Source of the DNA: Methanoregula sp.
GTDB taxonomy: Archaea; Halobacteriota; Methanomicrobia; Methanomicrobiales; Methanospirillaceae
Assembly: GCA_026625165.1 (NCBI GenBank)
Contig: CP112999.1
Span: forward strand, 1,765,288 to 1,829,287
Direction: 5' to 3'
Length of the DNA stretch: 64,000 bases
The position numbers were made by a program, and so were the translations under genes. The notes below the pieces were generated by a model, which searched no databases, was not told the origin of the DNA, and saw only the letters and a list, made by a program, of their open reading frames with translations. Positions 4,355 to 63,971 of this stretch are shown in pieces; the first letter of the stretch is position 1; every line of letters starts with the position of its first letter.

Positions 4355-4657
4355 TTATTTTCTCCGGTGTTCGAGCTCACAAAAAACATCTGCAATGTCG
4401 ACATTTGCTGCACGGAGTGCGACCAGAATGTGGAAGAGCAGGTCTGCCGCTTCTTCGCTGGTGCGTTCCGGTATGCCATTTTTTACTGCGAGAATGAACT
4501 CGGTTGCCTCCTCGCCGACCTTTTCCAGTACCCGGTCAATCCCTTTCTCATCGGTGAGCAGCCGGCTCGTATAGGACTGCTCCGACGGGCGTTCTGCCCG
4601 CTCATTAATCACGCTCCAGATCTCGGCAATGACGGAAGGATCGATTGTCTTTTTCAT
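4355..4657 (-). CDS. hisE: Phosphoribosyl-ATP pyrophosphatase
   Basis: 100 aa, normal length. It hydrolyses phosphoribosyl-ATP to phosphoribosyl-AMP and PPi, the second step of histidine synthesis. Diagnostic residues are in the all-alpha MazG-like core: 'KVGEEATEFILAVKN' (~46-60) and 'EEAADLLFHILVAL' (~67-80), with Glu/Asp metal ligands. The start overlaps the end of the NusA-like gene by 4 nt. hisC and hisD lie elsewhere in this window, so the his pathway is scattered. Confidence 0.95.
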   Translation of the reverse strand: MKKTIDPSVIAEIWSVINERAERPSEQSYTSRLLTDEKGIDRVLEKVGEEATEFILAVKNGIPERTSEEAADLLFHILVALRAANVDIADVFCELEHRRK

Positions 4658-5097
4658 GGTTCCACAGGTGCAAGGAGCACCTCTCCTACATCAATCCCAA
4701 AGAACCTGCGGCAGAGAATCCGTGCTTTTTCGATATTGCACCCGCCCTTGCCGATCGCAATCCCAAGATCGTTTTTCTTTTTCAACAGCACATGGACCGG
4801 GCCGTTGTCAGATGTACGATCGATCCCGGCCACCTCCGCGGGTTTGAAAATGTTTGCAATAAACGTGTCGGGAGCATCGTCATATTCCACCATCTCGATT
4901 CTCTTGCCCAGCACGTTCTGGAGCCGTTTGATGTTCTCACCTTTCTTCCCGATTGCAAGCCCCATATCACCCCGCCGGATCACGTAGATGACCCTCTCGA
5001 ACCGGTCGTCTATGACGCAGTCAAGCGCGGTGGATTTGGTGAGGATCCTTAATTCCTCAATATACCTGCGTTCCTTAAAACCGATATTGCGCTCCAT
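4654..5097 (-). CDS. nusA: NusA-like transcription factor with two KH domains
   Basis: 147 aa, the short archaeal form without S1 or acidic repeats. Two KH modules are visible with GxxG loops: 'GLAIGKKGENIKRLQ' (~46-60) and 'GIAIGKGGCNIEKAR' (~111-125). The family binds RNA and acts in transcription elongation or termination. In many archaea it sits beside RNA polymerase genes; here it is paired with hisE instead, overlapping it by 4 nt. Confidence 0.9.
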   Translation of the reverse strand: MERNIGFKERRYIEELRILTKSTALDCVIDDRFERVIYVIRRGDMGLAIGKKGENIKRLQNVLGKRIEMVEYDDAPDTFIANIFKPAEVAGIDRTSDNGPVHVLLKKKNDLGIAIGKGGCNIEKARILCRRFFGIDVGEVLLAPVEP

Positions 5098-5253
5098 TCT
5101 TCGATCATTCCTATTGTATCCGCGGTTTTTTTAAGATATTCGATACTTGGATGAACCGTATTGATGCCGGAAGTGTCCGGATTCAAAGTCATTGTTTTTA
5201 TGAAATATTCACACACTGCTTGGGTAAAAAGATTGTGAAAAGAGTTCTGGGGA

Positions 5254-5985
5254 TTATCGGAAGAGGTAGTTGACAGACACGGTAGCACTCACCGTCACAT
5301 CACCTGCCTGGATGGGTGTAGGCGCAGCAGCCTTCATCATATCCCCTGCCATGTAATTCTCGTACAGCACAGTTGTGTACCCGCTGCTGATATCGACATC
5401 CCTGATAGTGGTAACCTGGACACCGAGAGCAGATGCAACGGTATCGGCATCCGCACGGGCGCGGGCAACCGCCTTTTTCAGGGCTTCGGTGCGCAGTACC
5501 TGCGCCTGCTCGTCCGAGAGCATGAACTGGATGGAACTTGCCTGGTTAATCCCGTTTGCCACCCCGATATCGATGACATCGCCGGTCCTGCTGACATCAT
5601 GGAGCGTAACCGTCACGGTATTTGTCACGCGGTACGATCGGATCTTCTGGTCATTCTGCGATTTGTAGATGTCATCATAGACAGGATAGATGTTATACCC
5701 GGTTGTCTTGAGCGCATCCGCGGGAATACCGTCAGCGGCAAGAGCATCAATCACCTGTTTCATGCGGGCAGCGTTCTCCGCTTGTGCAATTTTCACATCG
5801 GGGTTCTCTGTCTCGACTGCAAGGGAGACCTGCGCACGGTCGGGTGTCCCGATGACGTTGCCGTTTCCGCTGGCATGAATAACGCGGTCACTTGCCAAAT
5901 CAAAGGGTGAGGCAGTCGCACTGCCGATCAGGGCTATCGCAACAAGGATGATGGCTATAGAGAGGATAGTAATCCTTCGTATCAT
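5254..5985 (-). CDS. SIMPL (DUF541) exported protein
   Basis: 243 aa from the ATG at 5985, chosen because it puts a compact signal sequence at the N-terminus ('MIRRITILSIAIILVAIALI', then an Ala/Ser/Thr cleavage region). A longer frame reaches 6060. The mature part has 'GNGNVIGTPDRAQVSLAVE' and a helix rich in Ala/Glu ('AENAARMKQVIDAL'), as in the BP26/SIMPL family, which forms oligomeric channels or rings outside the membrane in bacteria. Archaeal function unknown. Monocistronic. Confidence 0.85.
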   Translation of the reverse strand: MIRRITILSIAIILVAIALIGSATASPFDLASDRVIHASGNGNVIGTPDRAQVSLAVETENPDVKIAQAENAARMKQVIDALAADGIPADALKTTGYNIYPVYDDIYKSQNDQKIRSYRVTNTVTVTLHDVSRTGDVIDIGVANGINQASSIQFMLSDEQAQVLRTEALKKAVARARADADTVASALGVQVTTIRDVDISSGYTTVLYENYMAGDMMKAAAPTPIQAGDVTVSATVSVNYLFR

Positions 5986-6215
5986 AATTATCGGAAATAA
6001 TTTGTGATGCAATCTGGTTAAAGATTGCTTTAAGCGCGAAAATTTTTGCATCATGCGCATCCCGCTTATGTTTCCGGAGATGCTTTGTTGTTTATAGTTT
6101 GCTGGCTGTAACAGGCTGGCTCATGCACGCAAAACATGGGAAAACAAGCTGCACCGGAACTCATGTTCGCATAAAATTACAATATCTAATAGCGCCTATA
6201 TTTCAGCGATTGAGC

Positions 6216-7469
6216 ATGGGAGCAACGATCACAGAGAAAATTTTTTCCGGCAAATGCACGCGGGATATCAGGGCCGGTAGTGTCGTGATGGTGCCGGTTG
6301 ATTCAGCGATGATCCACGATATCACAGGACCGCTTGCCATCCAGAAGTTCTACGAGATGGGCGGGAAGCAGGTCTTTGACAAAGAACGGATCGTCATGCT
6401 CTTTGACCACCAGATCCCTGCAGACTCGATCGAAGCAGCAAAGAACCATGTATATATGCGGAAATTCGCACACGAACAGGGGATCCATAACTACGATATC
6501 AACGAGGGAGTCTGCCACCAGGTTGTTGTCGAGAAAGGGCATGCGGCGCCCGGTGAGATTGTGGTAGGTGCCGACTCCCATACCTGCATGTACGGGGCAA
6601 CAGGGGCATTTGCCACCGGCATCGGCTCGACGGACATGGGATTTGTGCTCAAGTTCGGGGCACTCTATTTCAAGGTACCTGACACCATCAGGGCCGAAGT
6701 CCGGGGTTCTTTCCAGAACAGGGTGGGGGCAAAGGACCTTATCCTTTCGATAGCCGCAGATATCGGGGCGGATGGTGCAACCTACAAGGCGATCGAGTTC
6801 TGCGGGGAGACGATGCAGCACATGGACATGGCTGGGAGGATGACCTGCTGCAATATGGCAATCGAGATGGGAGCAAAAGCAGGTATCGTCCCACCCGATG
6901 CCACGACATGGGACTATATCCGCAAGCGCAGGGCTGGTATCAGGCAGTTTGACCTCGCAAGTGATCCCGATGCGACATTTTCAGACCGAAAGATGTATGA
7001 CGTGGCACGCCTCGAACCTCAGGTCGCCGTACCCCACAACGTAGACCTTGGAGTGCCTGTTTCAAAAGTTGCGGGCACGCATGTTGACCAGATCTTCATC
7101 GGGTCGTGCACGAACGGCAGGTTTGAAGACTTTGCACAGGCAGCCGAAGTGCTGGGCACCCAATCATTCTCCCCGTCAGTGAGGGTGATCATCATCCCTG
7201 CATCAAAAGAAGAGTATCTCAAAACCCTGCGTGCCGGGTTGATAGAAAAGTTTGTGACAGCCGGTGCTCTTGTGGAAGCTCCCTGCTGCGGCCCGTGTAT
7301 GGGCGGTGCATTCGGTCTGCTTGCGCCCGGGGAAGTCTCGCTCTCGACCTCAAACCGCAACTTCCGGGGACGTCAGGGAAGCACGGAAGGAAAGGTGTAT
7401 CTCTGCTCTCCGGCAACCGCAGCAGCAAGCGCGATCACCGGTGAGATCACCGATCCAAGGGAGGTATGA
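6216..7469 (+). CDS. 3-isopropylmalate / homoaconitate dehydratase large subunit
   Basis: 417 aa from ATG 6216, which gives the family N-terminus 'MGATITEKIFSGKC'. It is an aconitase-superfamily large subunit carrying the [4Fe-4S] ligands: 'GSCTNGR' (~292-298) and 'CCGPCMGG' (~352-359), plus 'GADSHTC' (~118-124). With the small subunit it isomerises isopropylmalate (leucine) or homocitrate-type acids (2-oxosuberate for coenzyme B). It overlaps the small subunit gene. Methanogens carry both paralogues and this subunit does not by itself decide between them. Confidence 0.92.
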   Translation: MGATITEKIFSGKCTRDIRAGSVVMVPVDSAMIHDITGPLAIQKFYEMGGKQVFDKERIVMLFDHQIPADSIEAAKNHVYMRKFAHEQGIHNYDINEGVCHQVVVEKGHAAPGEIVVGADSHTCMYGATGAFATGIGSTDMGFVLKFGALYFKVPDTIRAEVRGSFQNRVGAKDLILSIAADIGADGATYKAIEFCGETMQHMDMAGRMTCCNMAIEMGAKAGIVPPDATTWDYIRKRRAGIRQFDLASDPDATFSDRKMYDVARLEPQVAVPHNVDLGVPVSKVAGTHVDQIFIGSCTNGRFEDFAQAAEVLGTQSFSPSVRVIIIPASKEEYLKTLRAGLIEKFVTAGALVEAPCCGPCMGGAFGLLAPGEVSLSTSNRNFRGRQGSTEGKVYLCSPATAAASAITGEITDPREV

Positions 7470-57116: not shown

Positions 57117-58244
57117 TTATTGCCCGGATCCAGGTATTTTAGCAAACCCTGATTTGTGAACCAGGTATGCTGCAATAATCCCGATGAAAAATGCGACCGT
57201 CATTGAACTGATGAGCGCGAGCACTCCAATCAGTATCGTCACCGGCAGCGATTCTGTCCTGAAACTGTGTTTGCCCATCTCCAAGGCAACAAACAAGAGA
57301 AGCGCCCCGAAGAGTCCCACCGGAATGAGCGTGAGCATATCGGCAGAGGCAAAAAAGAGGGCAAGAACGATGAAGATCAGCCCTGCGAGGATGTTTGCCC
57401 CGCCGGTCCGGGCCCCGTAACGGTACTGCCCGGCAAGTCCTCCGGCACCGTGGCACATGGGAAACCCGCCCAGCGGGACAGAGATGAGGTTCATGATCCC
57501 GATGCTCCGGGACAGGTGCGGGGCAGGCACCTCCCGTTTAAAAAGATCTTTTGTCAGGAGCGCTGTCGCGAGAATGGCATTTGTGACCGTGAGGAGTGCC
57601 TGTGCCGGGACAAGGGAATACATCGCATCTATATAATCCGCAGGAGGTGGGATGATGAGTGCCTGAAATGTCAGCACCTGCACCTGCGGCAGCCCGTTGA
57701 TGATAATGCCTGCAGCGACTCCTATAGCGATAATGATCAATGCCGACAGATCAGGGATCCGTTCCTGGTAAAAAATGATGATCAGGAACAAAAGGATAAT
57801 CATGATTCCGATGGCTGAAAAAAGCGGGTCGGAGATGATAAAACCGACAGAAGTCCTGACAAGCAGCAGGGCGAGCCCAAGCTGGATACCTCGGACGACT
57901 GACGTCGGGATGGCCGCTTCCAGCCATCGAAGGAGCGGCCCGTAACTCATCAGCAGGAAGAGAACCCCGAGGATGAGCCCGGCAGCGGCAATCTCACCGG
58001 CACCCAGCCTCTCGGCGATCACGATGACCGCTATTGCTTTCATCGGTTCGATCGGGATCGGAAGCCCGTAATAATACCCGGTAATCATGTACCAGATACC
58101 AAAGAAAAGGAGCATGGCGCCGATATTCATCGTCGTCACGAGCGCGACAGCAACGATGAGCGGGATGATCGTCCCGAAATCACCAAAAGCCCCGGCAAGC
58201 TCGGAGAGCGAGAACTTCAATGCCGGTCTTTCTTCCTCGGTCAT
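57117..58244 (-). CDS. MOT1-type molybdate (sulfate-family) transporter
   Basis: 375 aa from ATG 58244; the frame extends upstream but this start gives the family N-terminus. About ten to eleven membrane helices. MOT1 signatures: 'GAFGDFGTIIPLIV' near the start and 'FPMCHGAGGLAGQYRYGART' (~270-290). The family takes up molybdate in plants and algae. It lies 28 nt downstream of a MoSto-like gene and near a tungstate ABC transporter, so oxyanion uptake is strongly suggested. Confidence 0.85.
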   Translation of the reverse strand: MTEEERPALKFSLSELAGAFGDFGTIIPLIVAVALVTTMNIGAMLLFFGIWYMITGYYYGLPIPIEPMKAIAVIVIAERLGAGEIAAAGLILGVLFLLMSYGPLLRWLEAAIPTSVVRGIQLGLALLLVRTSVGFIISDPLFSAIGIMIILLFLIIIFYQERIPDLSALIIIAIGVAAGIIINGLPQVQVLTFQALIIPPPADYIDAMYSLVPAQALLTVTNAILATALLTKDLFKREVPAPHLSRSIGIMNLISVPLGGFPMCHGAGGLAGQYRYGARTGGANILAGLIFIVLALFFASADMLTLIPVGLFGALLLFVALEMGKHSFRTESLPVTILIGVLALISSMTVAFFIGIIAAYLVHKSGFAKIPGSGQ

Positions 58245-58272
58245 TTGATCACAAAAAAGAGCGGGGAGGAAT

Positions 58273-59082
58273 TTATGCTGCCCTGATGATCGTTCCGACA
58301 TTCCTGCCGTTGATCGCCTTCTCAATCATGCCCCGCTTATGGCAGTTGATGATCCTTACCTCTCTTATATGCACGGCTTTTGAGAGCAGGTCGATTACCA
58401 TCGGCTCGATGACCATATCCTCAAGGCTGAGTTTTACGAGATCTTCTGCCGTGATGTCCCGGATCAGTTCCGAGTCCGGGTTGATCCGGGGATCTTCCAT
58501 ATAGAGACCATCAACATTCTTTCCGATGATGCAGCTTTTTGCCCCCAGAACCTCTGCGATAAGGAATGCACCGGTGTCAGTCCGGTGGGGCGGGATCATC
58601 TCGTTTTTAGCCGGATGCTCGTACAGTCCATAGGGGGGAGTGCCGTGAACAACAGGCAGCATTCCCAGCTTCAGGATTGTTGGAAGATCAAGGAGGTCTG
58701 TGGTATGGATCCGGGTCCCGCTGTATTTCGACAGCAGGATGGAGACCATGATCGCGTTCTGCTCAGAGATCTTTGCCGCAAGCTCCGCAAGCACCCCGGT
58801 CGGCATCCCGAGGTCCATGCCGATGTCCATGATGTGGCGCACCCTTCCGCCGCCACCCGTGACCACGAGGAGCTGGTGCTTTTTTGACAACTCCCCGATC
58901 TCTTCGCAAAGCGGGTACATCACCTCACGGCCATAATCGATCGCGCCATGGCCGCCGATCTTGACCACGTTTAAGTCAGGCGCGATCCGGATCTGCTCCC
59001 CTGCAGGCTTTTTGCGCTTCATGTGCTTTCGTACCAGCGTCTCGCCCATAAGGCCACTCTGTAACTCAAGCCGGTGTTCCAT
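58273..59082 (-). CDS. MoSto-like (molybdenum storage) amino-acid-kinase-fold protein
   Basis: 269 aa. Amino-acid-kinase fold: 'VVKIGG' (39-44), 'VVTGGGGRVRH' (73-83), 'IPPHRTDTGAFLIAEVLGA' (163-181), 'NVDGLYMEDPR' (189-199) and the C-terminal 'VGTIIRAA'. The pattern and order match MosA/MosB of the bacterial molybdenum storage protein (relatives of UMP kinase), as recalled, rather than PyrH. MoSto packs hundreds of Mo or W atoms as polyoxometalates with ATP. RBS GTGAGG precedes the ATG. It shares a promoter block with the tungstate transporter operon. Confidence 0.75.
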   Translation of the reverse strand: MEHRLELQSGLMGETLVRKHMKRKKPAGEQIRIAPDLNVVKIGGHGAIDYGREVMYPLCEEIGELSKKHQLLVVTGGGGRVRHIMDIGMDLGMPTGVLAELAAKISEQNAIMVSILLSKYSGTRIHTTDLLDLPTILKLGMLPVVHGTPPYGLYEHPAKNEMIPPHRTDTGAFLIAEVLGAKSCIIGKNVDGLYMEDPRINPDSELIRDITAEDLVKLSLEDMVIEPMVIDLLSKAVHIREVRIINCHKRGMIEKAINGRNVGTIIRAA

Positions 59083-59118: not shown

Positions 59119-59151
59119 TTATAAGCCAATGTAAACCAGTTGGTATACCAG
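59119..59151 (-). promoter_or_regulatory. Conserved operator/promoter block A of the MoSto-MOT1 operon
   Basis: Read on the minus strand: CTGGTATACCA, then ACTGGTTTAC, then ATTGGCTTATAA, which includes the TATA-like TTATAA (59119-59124), 37 nt upstream of the MoSto ATG. It contains the perfect palindrome TGGTATACCA (59141-59150) and overlapping ACCA-N2-TGGT half-sites. A nearly identical block lies before the tungstate transporter. Confidence 0.7.
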
Positions 59152-59218
59152 ACGATAATTCCGCTCCGGCACAAAAGCTGATAAATAACAACGCGGATTG
59201 TCTATGGAGATGATGAGT

Positions 59219-59422
59219 ATGAAGATTTACGTGCGTGAACGCCAGAAAATCGGAGAAGGTGTAGAGTCGCCCAAATACCGCATCGTTGCGGTTACCGGTG
59301 GTCAGCTCCAGATTGAAGCAACACATTTCCGAAAATTCGAGATTGAACAGATAGCTAAAGATGTCGGTGCACAGGTTGTCTTTATGAAACCGGTGCCGGA
59401 TGACCAGAAGAAGAAACACTAA
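59219..59422 (+). CDS. Small conserved-looking hypothetical protein
   Basis: 67 aa from ATG 59219, chosen because GGAG at 59207-59210 is 8 nt upstream; earlier in-frame ATGs/TTG exist from 59198. 'KIGEGVESPKYRIVAVTGGQ' and 'FRKFEIEQIAKDVGAQVVFM' suggest a compact beta-alpha fold. Divergent from MoSto and next to operator block A, so it may belong to the Mo/W regulon. Function unknown. Confidence 0.65.
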   Translation: MKIYVRERQKIGEGVESPKYRIVAVTGGQLQIEATHFRKFEIEQIAKDVGAQVVFMKPVPDDQKKKH

Positions 59423-59493
59423 ATACAACTCTTTTTCCGATAATTGAAATGAAAAAGGGAAGATTTTCTCCCGGCCACAAAAATAATTCCAAG

Positions 59494-59507
59494 TTTAAAA
59501 ATAAGCA
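59494..59507 (+). promoter_or_regulatory. TATA-like box before the winged-helix gene
   Basis: GTTTAAAAATAAGC, about 45-55 nt upstream of ATG 59550, in the 127-bp gap after the small hypothetical gene. Confidence 0.4.
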
Positions 59508-59549
59508 TCTTTATGTGAGTGCATCCAATAATCCCAAAAGAGAATCCCC

Positions 59550-59897
59550 ATGGTCGCGCTCTCAGTCGATGTCCTTTTTGATGCCGCAGTCCGCATCCAG
59601 TTACTGGAACGTTCGATTACGATCTCGTTTTCTAAAGACACAATCAGGATAAAATTCCCGACTACCCGCAGGCTCGCAGAGTTTCTCGAAGTGCCCCATT
59701 ATTACGTGCTCCCCTATTTTGCCATGATGGAGCAGGAGGAACTGGTCACACGCGCTGAACGGATCGGTATCCTCACGACCGCAAAAGGCAGCCGGAAGAT
59801 GATCGGGGTCATGAAGGCGCAGTATGAGGAGGATGTCGTGGGGATCATCGGGCATACGATTTTTACCGAGATTACAAAGAAATGCCAGACTGGATGA
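59550..59897 (+). CDS. Small winged-helix-like protein, candidate Mo/W regulator
   Basis: 115 aa. The middle ('TTRRLAEFLEVPHYYVLPYF', then 'MMEQEELVTRAERIGILTT') has the spacing of an HTH followed by a wing. Not a ModE, DtxR or NikR homologue that I can recognise. It lies between two copies of the conserved operator block and upstream of the tungstate transporter operon, so it is the obvious candidate for the DNA-binding protein (inference from position). Confidence 0.55.
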   Translation: MVALSVDVLFDAAVRIQLLERSITISFSKDTIRIKFPTTRRLAEFLEVPHYYVLPYFAMMEQEELVTRAERIGILTTAKGSRKMIGVMKAQYEEDVVGIIGHTIFTEITKKCQTG

Positions 59898-59949
59898 TGA
59901 TTCTCTTCTCTTCTTTTTTCCATCATTCCGTTTCTTTAAGTATTGTACG

Positions 59950-59983
59950 CTGGTATACCACCTGTTTACCAATTGGTTAATAA
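59950..59983 (+). promoter_or_regulatory. Conserved operator/promoter block B of the tungstate transporter operon
   Basis: CTGGTATACCA (59950-59960), then CCTGTTTAC, then CAATTGGTTAATAA running into an AT-rich TATA region (59978-59993). Contains TGGTATACCA (59951-59960) and a second palindrome ACCAATTGGT (59968-59977). 77 nt upstream of the binding-protein ATG. Same order and orientation relative to its promoter as block A. Confidence 0.7.
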
Positions 59984-60059
59984 AATTTAATTTACAAATT
60001 CAAAAAAGAAATAATATCTATTACTACATCCCAGTTAGATCGCAAAAGGACTGAATTGT

Positions 60060-61979
60060 ATGAGAGGTTCCTTCAAACATTCCATACTCCTGCTTTTATT
60101 CCTCCTCATTATCGGAGGCGTGATCATTGCAGGCTGTACGACACCGAGTGAAACAGCAACCCCGGGCCCGGCCGGTGCAACACCGGTCGCGACGGAAAAA
60201 CCAGCGACTGCTGAAAAGCCAAAGCTCCTGCTTGCGACAACAACAAGCCTGTACGATACCGGGCTGCTCAATTACCTTGAGCCGAATTTTGAGTCAAAGT
60301 ATAACGTCGACCTACAGATCACGTCACAGGGCACGGGTAAGGCAATCGAGCTCGCAAAGAAGGGCGACGCTGATGTCCTGCTCGTCCACTCTCCTTCACA
60401 AGAACAGACATTCCTTGAAGACGGTTACGGGCTGAACCGACGCACATTTGCCTACAACTACTTCGTGATTGTCGGCCCGGCCAGCGATCCCGCGGGCATC
60501 AAGGGCAAGACTCCCGAAGAGGCATTCAAGGCGATCCTGACGCAGGGCAAGGCAGGAAAAGCAGGTGTTATGTTCGTCTCCCGAGGTGACGCATCCGGCA
60601 CACACACGTCCGAACAGAGCGTGTGGAAGGCAGCGAAATACACCTATGCAACGGACGTCCAGAAATCCGGGAACTGGTACATTGAGGCCGGAAAAGGCAT
60701 GGGTGAGACCCTCCAGATGGCAAGTGAAAAGGGAGCCTATACCTACACCGATGAGGGCACATTCCTTGCATACCAGGGAAAACTGAACCTCGTGCCACTG
60801 GTGACCCAGGGGCCTGTCCTGATGAACCTCTATAGCGTCATGACGGTCTATCCGGCAAACCCGCAGCCGGACAAGATTGCGATGTCAAACAATTTTATCA
60901 ACTGGCTAATTTCTCCGGAAACCATGACCGACATCGGCAATTATGGCAAGGACAAGTACGGAAAAGGGCTGTTCACACCCATGACAGCGGGTGTCCCGAA
61001 AGGTGTGACAGCTGACTTTACGACACCTGCAACTGCGACAAAGCCATTGAAGGTGTACCATGCAGGAAGCCTTGCCACCTCGTTTGGCAAGCTCGAGAAG
61101 ATGTTTGAGAAGGCACACCCGGATATTGATGTGCAGTTGTTCTCCGGGGGCAGCGGAGCACTTGTCGACAAGGTAAACAAGCAGAACCAGAAGGCTGATG
61201 TGCTGGCAAGCGCGGACTACTCGCTCATCTCCAAGTACCTGTATCCAGCGAATGCAACATCCTATGTGAATTTCGCAAAGAACACGATAGTACTCTGCTA
61301 TGTGGACCAGAGCAAATATGCACAGGAGATCAACAAGAACAACTGGTACATGATCCTCGGGCGCGATGGCGTGACCTATGCAATCAGCGACCCGAAATCG
61401 GACCCGGCAGGATACCGGTCCCTCATGACCATCGGCCTTGCTGAAAAAGCATACAACTTCCCGTTCATCTTCGACACCCTTGTCACACCCTACAGTAAGA
61501 TCAAAAAGACATCATCCAACAATGTCTGGACAATCGATGTGACAACCACAGAACCTGATGCAAAGAAACTGACGATAACCCCGACAGGGCCGGACATCGC
61601 CCCGCTGCTCAAGGACGGGAAAGTCGATTATGCATTCGAGTACAGCAGCGTCGCAGTCCAGAGCGGACTGAAATACATCGTTCTCCCGCCGGAGATTGAC
61701 CTTTCGGATCCTGCAAGGATGGTGTCTTACCAGACAATGCAGGTGAAACGCCCCTCGGGAACTACCACTGTTACCGAAACCGGAATGCCGATCATTTATG
61801 CGGTCACCGTTCCGGTCAGTGCAAGAAGCCCGGATATGGGAGTTGAGTTTGTAAAACTGCTCATAAGCAGCGATGGCCAGGCGGTGCTCAATGCGGATGG
61901 TCAGACCCCGATTGTGCCGGCGGAGGGATACGGCAGCGTGCCGGATGCCCTCAAACCGGTGGTCACCGTTAAGGTATAA
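60060..61979 (+). CDS. Tungstate-binding lipoprotein: fused TupA and WtpA-like domains
   Basis: 639 aa, double the usual size. Signal and lipobox 'IIAGC' with C26. Domain 1 (~54-320) is TupA-like: 'LLLATTTSLYDTGLL' and 'SRGDASGTHTSEQ' (~173-185). Domain 2 (~328-635) is WtpA/ModA-like: 'LKVYHAGSLATSF' (~329-341), 'SGGSGALVDKVNKQ', 'EYSSVAVQSGLKY'. Both domain families bind tungstate or molybdate with high affinity. The permease and ATPase follow. RBS-like AAGGA precedes the ATG. One chain with two unrelated-family oxyanion receptors is unusual. Confidence 0.85.
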   Translation: MRGSFKHSILLLLFLLIIGGVIIAGCTTPSETATPGPAGATPVATEKPATAEKPKLLLATTTSLYDTGLLNYLEPNFESKYNVDLQITSQGTGKAIELAKKGDADVLLVHSPSQEQTFLEDGYGLNRRTFAYNYFVIVGPASDPAGIKGKTPEEAFKAILTQGKAGKAGVMFVSRGDASGTHTSEQSVWKAAKYTYATDVQKSGNWYIEAGKGMGETLQMASEKGAYTYTDEGTFLAYQGKLNLVPLVTQGPVLMNLYSVMTVYPANPQPDKIAMSNNFINWLISPETMTDIGNYGKDKYGKGLFTPMTAGVPKGVTADFTTPATATKPLKVYHAGSLATSFGKLEKMFEKAHPDIDVQLFSGGSGALVDKVNKQNQKADVLASADYSLISKYLYPANATSYVNFAKNTIVLCYVDQSKYAQEINKNNWYMILGRDGVTYAISDPKSDPAGYRSLMTIGLAEKAYNFPFIFDTLVTPYSKIKKTSSNNVWTIDVTTTEPDAKKLTITPTGPDIAPLLKDGKVDYAFEYSSVAVQSGLKYIVLPPEIDLSDPARMVSYQTMQVKRPSGTTTVTETGMPIIYAVTVPVSARSPDMGVEFVKLLISSDGQAVLNADGQTPIVPAEGYGSVPDALKPVVTVKV

Positions 61980-62112: not shown

Positions 62113-62850
62113 GTGATTACAGTGCAGGAGATCATTGACGGGTTTAATCAGGCGTTCCAGCTGATAGTCTCACTCAATCCGGAACTCCTTGAGGTCACCG
62201 CGCTCTCCCTAGCAATCTCAATTTCTGCTACGGTAATCGCCACGCTTATTGCGATACCTGTTGGAGGGCTGATCCATTTCCGCGAATTTACCGGAAAGCG
62301 TGCCGTGATCACTGTAATCCAGACCCTGTATTCAGTCCCGACAGTCATCATCGGTCTGTTCGTGTACCTGCTCATATCCCGGTCCGGGCCTCTTGGGTTT
62401 TTCGGGCTGCTCTTTACTCCCGTAGGTATGATCATCGGGCAGTCGATCCTGATCCTGCCGATTATGATCGGGCTTACCATCACAGCCCTCTCCGGGGTTG
62501 ACCGGAACATCCGGGACATGCTCATTTCTCTTGGGGCGACCGAATTCCAGAACATAACCCAGATCGTACGGGAGGCCCGGTTTGCGATCCTCGGTGCGGT
62601 GATCCTCGGGTTCGGGAGGGCGATCTCCGAGGTTGGTGTTGCGATGATGATCGGAGGGAATATCCGGGGTGCAACACGCGTTCTTACCACATCGATCGCA
62701 CTCGAGACCGGCATGGGTAACTTCGGGCTCTCTATTGCGCTTGGCATCGTCCTGCTCGTCATCGCGCTGGCCGTAGTTCTGATCATGAACCTGATCACCT
62801 CTGGTGCACTCTCGGATTCCGACAAAATACTAGGGGGCCCGCAGGCATGA
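62113..62850 (+). CDS. tupB: Tungstate ABC transporter permease (TupB type)
   Basis: 245 aa from GTG 62113 (alternative GTG 62122). About six membrane helices and the permease coupling loop 'EAR..LGAVILGFGRAISEVG' (~155-175). The sequence 'MMIGGNIRGATRVLTTSIAL' is typical of tungstate-type permeases. Overlaps the ATPase gene by 4 nt. Confidence 0.88.
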   Translation: MITVQEIIDGFNQAFQLIVSLNPELLEVTALSLAISISATVIATLIAIPVGGLIHFREFTGKRAVITVIQTLYSVPTVIIGLFVYLLISRSGPLGFFGLLFTPVGMIIGQSILILPIMIGLTITALSGVDRNIRDMLISLGATEFQNITQIVREARFAILGAVILGFGRAISEVGVAMMIGGNIRGATRVLTTSIALETGMGNFGLSIALGIVLLVIALAVVLIMNLITSGALSDSDKILGGPQA

Positions 62851-63971
62851 TCAGGATCTCAGGTCTGTCGCGCCGGTTCGGGGATCGCGAAGTCATAAAG
62901 GATATTGATTTGGAGATCCGTCATGGGGAGATCTTTGCCCTTATCGGCCCCTCCGGAAGCGGCAAGACCACGATGCTCCGGCTCATCGATCTTCTTGATC
63001 GCCCGTCTGACGGATCTATCATCTTTGACGGCCTGCAGACAGAGGGTAAAGAATCCGAACGGCGATCCATCCGGAGACGGATGGCGATGGTCTTCCAGAA
63101 ACCCGGTGTGCTGAATACGACCGTTGAGCGAAATGTTGCATTCGGGCTTGAATTCCGGGGAATACCACCTGATATGATTCATCAGCGTGTTGGAGAAGCC
63201 CTGCAGAAGGTGGGACTTTCCGGTTTTGCAAAGCGCCGTGCAACCTCACTCTCCGGAGGGGAGATGCAACGCGTCGCTATCGCCAGGGCAATTGTCACAA
63301 GGCCGGAAGTACTCCTTCTTGATGAACCTACTGCAAACCTTGACCCTATCTCCACCGGGATCATCGAAAATCTCATTGTATGGATCAACAAGGAGAAAGA
63401 AACCACCATCGTTATAGCCACCCACGACATGGGACAGGGGCAGCGTCTTGCCAGCCGTATAGGTGTGATGATGGACGGCCGGCTTGTCCAGGCGGGGGAG
63501 ATGTACGATATATTCTACCATCCTGTAAACCGTGCGATTGCCAGCTTTGTCGGAATCGATCCGGTTCGCGGTGGCATCGTGGAGTCCAATGAAAACGATC
63601 TTGCCACGATTGCGATCAAAAGTTCCCGTATACAGGCAGTCACATCGCTAGAAAAAGGGCAACGGGTGGCTCTCTGCATACGCCCGGAAGAGGTTACGCT
63701 CTCACTACCGGACACCTCCCCCCCGGCAAGCAGCGCCAGGAATTGTCTGGCTGGCATGATAACCCGCCTTCTGCCTTTTGGACCGTTCACACGCGTACAT
63801 ATAGACTGCGGGTTCCCCATTACAGCACTGCTCACCCGGCGTTCGTGCGAAGAGCTCGCTCTTGCCCCCCTGATGCGGGTAAATGCAACAATAAAAGCCA
63901 CTGCGGTTCACGTGATACCTGATCCTGCTGAGACCGACCTGCCTCCTGTTGGACTGGGAGAGACAGGATAG
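62847..63971 (+). CDS. tupC: Tungstate/molybdate ABC transporter ATPase with C-terminal TOBE-like domain
   Basis: 374 aa. Walker A 'GPSGSGKTT' (~34-42), signature 'LSGGEMQRVAIARA' (~135-148), Walker B 'VLLLDEPTA', H-loop 'ATHDMGQGQ'. The C-terminal ~130 residues ('RGGIVESNENDLATIAI' onward, 'ALCIRPEEVTLSL') form a TOBE/MOP-like regulatory part that in ModC binds oxyanion. Energises import by the fused binding protein. Confidence 0.88.
   Translation: MIRISGLSRRFGDREVIKDIDLEIRHGEIFALIGPSGSGKTTMLRLIDLLDRPSDGSIIFDGLQTEGKESERRSIRRRMAMVFQKPGVLNTTVERNVAFGLEFRGIPPDMIHQRVGEALQKVGLSGFAKRRATSLSGGEMQRVAIARAIVTRPEVLLLDEPTANLDPISTGIIENLIVWINKEKETTIVIATHDMGQGQRLASRIGVMMDGRLVQAGEMYDIFYHPVNRAIASFVGIDPVRGGIVESNENDLATIAIKSSRIQAVTSLEKGQRVALCIRPEEVTLSLPDTSPPASSARNCLAGMITRLLPFGPFTRVHIDCGFPITALLTRRSCEELALAPLMRVNATIKATAVHVIPDPAETDLPPVGLGETG

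Follow-up and report, generated by a model that had tools for sequence, protein, structure and literature searches.

Hydrogenotrophic methanogenesis depends on a Mo/W formylmethanofuran dehydrogenase, and how the supply of Mo and W is controlled in the Methanomicrobiales is, to our knowledge, not known. This question is raised by a locus of Methanoregula sp. (contig CP112999.1, positions 1,765,288 to 1,829,287; this stretch of 64,000 nucleotides is the window, and its first letter is position 1), in which genes for a molybdenum storage protein homolog (MoSto) and a molybdate transporter on one strand and genes for a tungstate transporter on the other are each preceded by a copy of a similar sequence block. 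Are the two blocks operators of a common regulon, and which protein would bind them? The following features were assigned.

57117 to 58250, minus strand: MOT1-type molybdate transporter (PF16983, E 1.6e-50)
58273 to 59082, minus strand: MoSto homolog, molybdenum storage protein beta-like (PDB 2ogx_B, E 2.9e-57)
59119 to 59151, minus strand: operator/promoter block A, in front of MoSto-MOT1, composed of two palindromic units in tandem and a TATA-like TTATAA; read from the sequence, kept in relatives
59119 to 59124, minus strand: TTATAA, TATA-like element of the MoSto promoter, separated from the operator edge by 4 bp, spacing conserved
59129 to 59138, no strand: site A unit 2, degenerate palindrome ATGTAAACCA (minus strand: TGGTTTACAT), 12-bp period
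59141 to 59150, no strand: site A unit 1, perfect palindrome TGGTATACCA
59219 to 59422, plus strand: p67, conserved protein of 67 residues with no known function, encoded between MoSto and HTH115
59550 to 59897, plus strand: HTH115, winged-helix protein of 115 residues without a Pfam family above cut-off, best candidate regulator
59950 to 59983, plus strand: operator block B, 5' of the TupA-WtpA transporter genes; read from the sequence, kept in relatives
59951 to 59960, no strand: site B unit 1, perfect palindrome TGGTATACCA
59962 to 59971, no strand: site B unit 2, degenerate, CTGTTTACCA, 11-bp period
59968 to 59977, no strand: third, overlapping palindrome of site B, ACCAATTGGT, mostly kept as CARTTGRTTAA in the alignment
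59977 to 59983, plus strand: TATA-like TTAATAA, possibly the TATA box of the tup operon (inference)
60060 to 61979, plus strand: fused TupA-like and WtpA-like tungstate-binding protein
62122 to 62850, plus strand: tungstate ABC permease, TupB-like
62847 to 63971, plus strand: ABC ATPase with TOBE domain, WtpC-like

The homology of the MoSto product to MosA/MosB of A. vinelandii is full-length (residues 5-268), and the MOT1 gene lies downstream of MoSto in the same orientation, with 22 bp in between. In the fusion protein, the TupA-like domain comprises residues 49-287 and the WtpA-like domain residues 330-614; in many relatives, just one of these domains or two separate genes were found. The p67 protein is strongly conserved (invariant residues R6, K10, G14, P18, A24, H36, R38, E41, and E43), is found with MoSto in 155 of the 232 genomes analyzed, and is present in Asgard archaea as well, and Pfam, PDB-sequence, and fold searches with it gave no significant match. 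Its size hinted at a Mop-like molbindin, which is not claimed here because the predicted fold lacks a significant match. The nearest named relatives of the genome are Methanoregula metagenome genomes.

Anatomy and specificity of the two blocks

Block A (minus strand, 59151-59119) reads CTGGTATACCAACTGGTTTACATTGGCTTATAA, and block B (plus strand, 59950-59983) reads CTGGTATACCACCTGTTTACCAATTGGTTAATAA. Both contain the perfect palindrome TGGTATACCA, and the shared block reported in the original prediction is confirmed at both places. The palindrome had been described there as being followed by separate words, and this part of the description has to be revised: TGGTTTACAT at site A and CTGTTTACCA at site B represent a degenerate second unit, to which site B adds a third. 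The operator is composed of 10-bp palindromes of the form TGRTATAYCA, arranged in tandem with a period of 11-12 bp. Counts over 101 sites gave the consensus TtGTAwACCA-RY-TGRTATAYCA, in which the TA, CA, and TG steps are near-invariant, and many lineages possess more symmetric arrays, e.g., TGATATATCAACTGATATATCA (locus L143) or TGTTATAACAATTGATATACCA (L231, from an Asgard archaeon). A single 18-bp dyad, GTAWACCANNTGGTWTAC, was considered as the true unit and rejected; it fits the window, yet relatives such as TGATATATCAACTGGTTTAC retain the 10-bp palindrome and not the long dyad, for which reason the tandem 10-bp reading was preferred.

The genome consists of a single contig of 2,174,862 bases, which was scanned by pattern searches. 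TGGTATACCA occurs four times in the entire 2.17 Mb, twice in blocks A and B and twice within genes, one HsdM-like and one for a membrane protein, where the rest of the block is missing. Likewise, six copies of TGRTATAYCA are present genome-wide, and only those at blocks A and B have a tandem partner. With up to two mismatches, the A-type pattern found site A and two weak matches, and with up to three mismatches the B-type pattern found site B and no other match. The block could be expected widely upstream of unrelated genes if it were not specific to the Mo/W genes, and such a distribution was looked for and not found, the tandem form being unique to the two sites; a widespread generic promoter element was ruled out by these scans. 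Alignment of the two intergenic regions gave a Smith-Waterman score of 34, a value reached by none of 400 dinucleotide-shuffled pairs (maximum, 30).

Conservation and promoter position of the operator

Relatives were analyzed in 232 genomes of the order Methanomicrobiales, with a family-level search in 108 genomes. A gapped pattern search of the 232 genomes gave block-like matches in G140, G167, G170, G172, and G177 (G and L denote our genome and locus designations), every one of which precedes a MoSto or TupA-type gene. All 36 exact A-type matches listed for the 108 family genomes are located at MoSto and/or p67. In the neighborhoods fetched around MoSto and HTH115, the operator was present in nearly all genomes of the window's genus and of genus g11, in other genera of the family, and in families f2-f6, and when the intergenic regions of close relatives were aligned, no long conserved blocks emerged other than the operator and the MoSto TATA box. 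These results confirm the assignment of the block to the MoSto-MOT1 and tungstate transporter promoters, as it is specific within the genome and kept 5' of the same Mo/W genes in relatives. At some HTH115-bearing loci the operator is weak or missing (L248, L255). Matches with one or two mismatches at L162-L165, L168, and L169 were treated as chance, since their neighbors show no consistent Mo/W gene. Several rearranged modules were also seen: MoSto and p67 are tandemly duplicated in L190 and L191 (family f5), with the operator at only one of the two p67 copies, and in L158 (4498-4845, G189) and L160 (1260-1538, G178) MoSto is truncated while an exact operator and p67 are retained.

The regions upstream of p67 were scored for the unit TGDTATAHCA occurring twice, 11 or 12 bp apart, with at most three mismatches. 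This two-unit operator was present in 96 of 113 distinct p67 upstream regions, as against 0.14% of shuffled p67 upstream regions and 1 of 1,638 control upstream regions reaching the same threshold. The shuffles and control regions rule out chance similarity as an explanation. One might still argue that the two copies merely share common core-promoter sequence without any dedicated regulator, given that a TATA-like sequence adjoins both and that two palindromes by themselves are short; considering the controls just described and the fact that no other gene of the genome is preceded by the block, we regard the chance that this or a fortuitous match accounts for the blocks as negligible.

The position of the operator relative to MoSto is rather constant. 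It lies 40-49 bp from the MoSto start in 59 of 81 cases and most often 4 bp from the TATA-like element; the proposal that the palindrome is situated just upstream of the TATA region holds at MoSto across the order. At the tup operon, a second TATA candidate is found near 60008-60020. Another feature, which the original prediction did not mention, is that in many relatives the MoSto operator also lies within the leader of the divergently transcribed p67-HTH115 genes; in the conserved module, an overlap with this leader is usual. In lineages with the operator near p67, 10-30 bp remain between the operator end and the p67 start, and a p67-oriented TATA box is situated approximately 30 bp upstream of the operator. 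The spacings at MoSto and p67 imply that a single operator borders the MoSto core promoter on its upstream side and in many lineages also lies in the p67-HTH115 start region. Autoregulation of p67-HTH115 is less obvious in the clade of the window itself, where 68 bp separate the operator from the p67 start. The second operator, between HTH115 and the tup genes, is present in most g1/g11 and Methanolinea-like genomes with tup genes after HTH115 and is missing where other genes come after HTH115; several g11 genomes have a degenerate copy at tup.

A candidate regulator and its possible mode of action

The protein encoded between the two blocks, HTH115, was found in 151, p67 in 155, and MoSto in 152 of the 232 genomes, usually in one divergent module. 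The structure of HTH115 predicted from 51 sequences (pLDDT 94) is a winged helix followed by C-terminal helices, and its best Foldseek matches are proteins of the DtxR/IdeR type, with modest similarity (7b1y, E 9.7e-4, TM-score 0.52). A profile search retrieved SSO2273 (E 0.0014) and, weakly, DtxR chains (E 0.05-0.07), whereas Pfam scans gave nothing above cut-off and NCBIfam no match. Residues P37, R40, H50, Y51, E61, E70, R71, G73, T76, and G80 are invariant in the 51-member alignment. In L030, L036, and L038 of genus g11, HTH115 is duplicated in tandem, the second copy being 48-62% identical to the window protein.

Five genomes that possess MoSto or p67 without HTH115 were checked (G001, G011, G099, G100, and G216), and the operator is missing in all five; G099 is 84% complete and the others are 93-99% complete. 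The reverse situation, an operator without a detected HTH115, was encountered in G142, G190, and G212, which are incomplete genomes (62-74% complete) in which HTH115 perhaps went undetected because contigs are missing. In G190, the contig stops just past p67; in a further genome, G141, HTH115 and p67 are on separate contigs and the p67 operator is retained. Distant HTH115 paralogs with 26-28% identity, encoded elsewhere, have an operator approximately 30 bp 5' of their own start (L166, L172, L173, and L175). The paralog of L173 (4444-4785, in the region 4444-7187 of this locus; G166) is, together with its own operator, divergent from genes that carry molybdopterin-binding and molybdopterin-oxidoreductase domains and were read as fmdD-fmdB, which suggests a role of the HTH115 family in the regulation of Mo/W enzymes as well.

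Predicted fold, co-occurrence, and paralogs thus support the earlier suggestion that the product of the gene at 59550 is the regulator, and both blocks very probably bind this small, previously undescribed DNA-binding protein, although binding data are not available. It appears improbable that another regulator encoded elsewhere, e.g., of the ModE or Tfx type, binds the blocks with HTH115 as a mere passenger. No experiment links HTH115 to DNA, and in the three incomplete genomes operators are present although HTH115 was not detected, both of which leave room for such a protein; however, the ModE model TIGR00637 matches none of the 232 genomes while scoring in the control genomes, HTH115 and the operator were lost jointly in the five genomes retaining MoSto or p67, and HTH115 paralogs have their own operators in unlinked places. 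Even less credible, in our view, is p67 as the DNA-binding regulator. It is the gene closest to the operator in most lineages, and in L167 (214-1251, G142), where p67 is present in three tandem copies, an operator is located just 5' of each; yet G001, G011, G099, and G100, which lack HTH115, retain p67 without an operator, a pattern that argues against p67 as a DNA binder. Moreover, operators are found at HTH115 paralogs having no p67 nearby, and the p67 model is of moderate confidence and without a significant structural match.

Taken together, the two blocks probably are operators of one small Mo/W homeostasis regulon, a conclusion drawn without binding or expression data. Specificity, conservation, location, co-occurrence, and predicted fold are results of this analysis, and the steps that follow are inferred from them. 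HTH115, as a dimeric winged-helix protein, would bind the tandem palindromes as side-by-side dimers. Bound to the operator in the p67 leader, it would repress its own operon, and at MoSto and tup it may block TFB/TBP, the operator edge being approximately 4 bp from the MoSto TATA box; the tup copy is presumed to work like the MoSto copy. Metal status, i.e., molybdate or tungstate, might lift or impose the block, either directly or via p67 or MoSto. We consider this overall scheme, comprising HTH115 binding, repression, and a metal signal, likely as a whole, with neither its sign nor its signal having been demonstrated.

A repressor is favored over an activator, and both the Mo/W response and its sign are inferences; the sign is open to doubt, given that an activator could likewise use a site upstream of the BRE. 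Such a protein would recruit TFB/TBP from just upstream of the BRE under metal limitation, in line with the constant distance, approximately 4 bp in most loci, by which the operator end precedes the MoSto TATA box and with the uncertain tup TATA box, which may be further downstream. Activation is nevertheless rather unlikely, as many lineages have the operator downstream of the p67-oriented TATA box, in the p67-HTH115 leader, a position expected to hinder initiation. A more far-reaching reading, which we offer tentatively and do not expect to hold in all its parts, is that HTH115 is the founder of an undescribed family of archaeal Mo/W regulators. Lacking both a ModE-like oxyanion domain and the metal sites of DtxR, it would use tandem 10-bp palindromes and sense metal via a partner, e.g., p67 or the MoSto cage, filled or empty; genes for Mo/W formylmethanofuran dehydrogenase would likewise be controlled, by paralogs of HTH115, and the system would be common to methanogens and Asgard archaea.

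More widely, HTH115 relatives accompanied by this module and by operator-like arrays were found in Methanocellales (L266) and in a Methanomicrobia genome (L271). Contigs of the Asgard archaea Borrarchaeum/Sifarchaeum (Borrarchaeota; L231, L239, L246, and L257) contain the MoSto / p67-HTH115 module in full, tandem palindromes included. All these occurrences are from metagenome assemblies, for which contig binning is a caveat.

Comparison with known regulatory systems

The case represents a new operator and a new candidate regulator of a familiar type, a transcription factor with a palindromic operator. The literature search, restricted to open-licence papers, found nothing relevant on this operator or on Mo/W regulators in the order. 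The ModE regulon, known from bacteria and Methanosarcinales, resembles the one proposed here in that a DNA-binding protein ties Mo/W availability to transport genes; in Methanosarcinales, modABC and nitrogenases are under the control of ModE (PMC9765008). HTH115 differs in being shorter and in its operator, and Pfam scans detected no TOBE/Mop molybdate-binding domain in it. ModE itself was ruled out as the regulator, TIGR00637 being without a match in any of the 232 genomes of the order, with control matches in M. acetivorans and E. coli. For this order without ModE, a specific operator, its candidate regulator, and a set of target genes are now available. Tfx of Methanothermobacter, likewise an archaeal DNA-binding protein linked to a Mo enzyme operon and to a tungstate response, binds downstream of the fmdECB promoter, and its own transcription is repressed by tungstate (PMC3087415); here, in contrast, a tandem palindrome is located at MoSto and the tup genes. 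General Pfam and NCBIfam scans gave no Tfx match for HTH115.

The DtxR/IdeR/MntR proteins are the source of the best fold matches of HTH115, whose predicted topology, a winged helix followed by helices, fits theirs at modest scores. DtxR/IdeR regulators act on short palindromic operators, on which two dimers can be accommodated, and the metal ligands of DtxR are Cys102, Glu105, His106, His79, Glu83, and His98. This Cys/His/Glu set is not represented among the residues that are invariant in the 51-member HTH115 alignment; HTH115 furthermore lacks an SH3-like domain, and its presumed targets are oxyanion genes. Weak similarity to other winged helices was seen within the family, with 7 of 51 members matching GntR PF00392 (best E 2.4e-4) and a weak match to PF12802 (0.0029), neither of which is matched by the window protein itself; unlike GntR/MarR-type proteins, HTH115 has no effector domain.

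Finally, the product of the target gene is a homolog of Azotobacter MoSto (MosAB; E 2.9e-57). A paper of 2019 described MoSto as without known homologs in databases and found the protein to accumulate alike at all tested Mo levels (PMC6448029). The archaeal homolog differs in belonging to what is probably a conserved regulon, and MoSto, which the literature had presented as almost unique to Azotobacter, is thereby placed in a widespread archaeal regulon that includes Asgard archaea.
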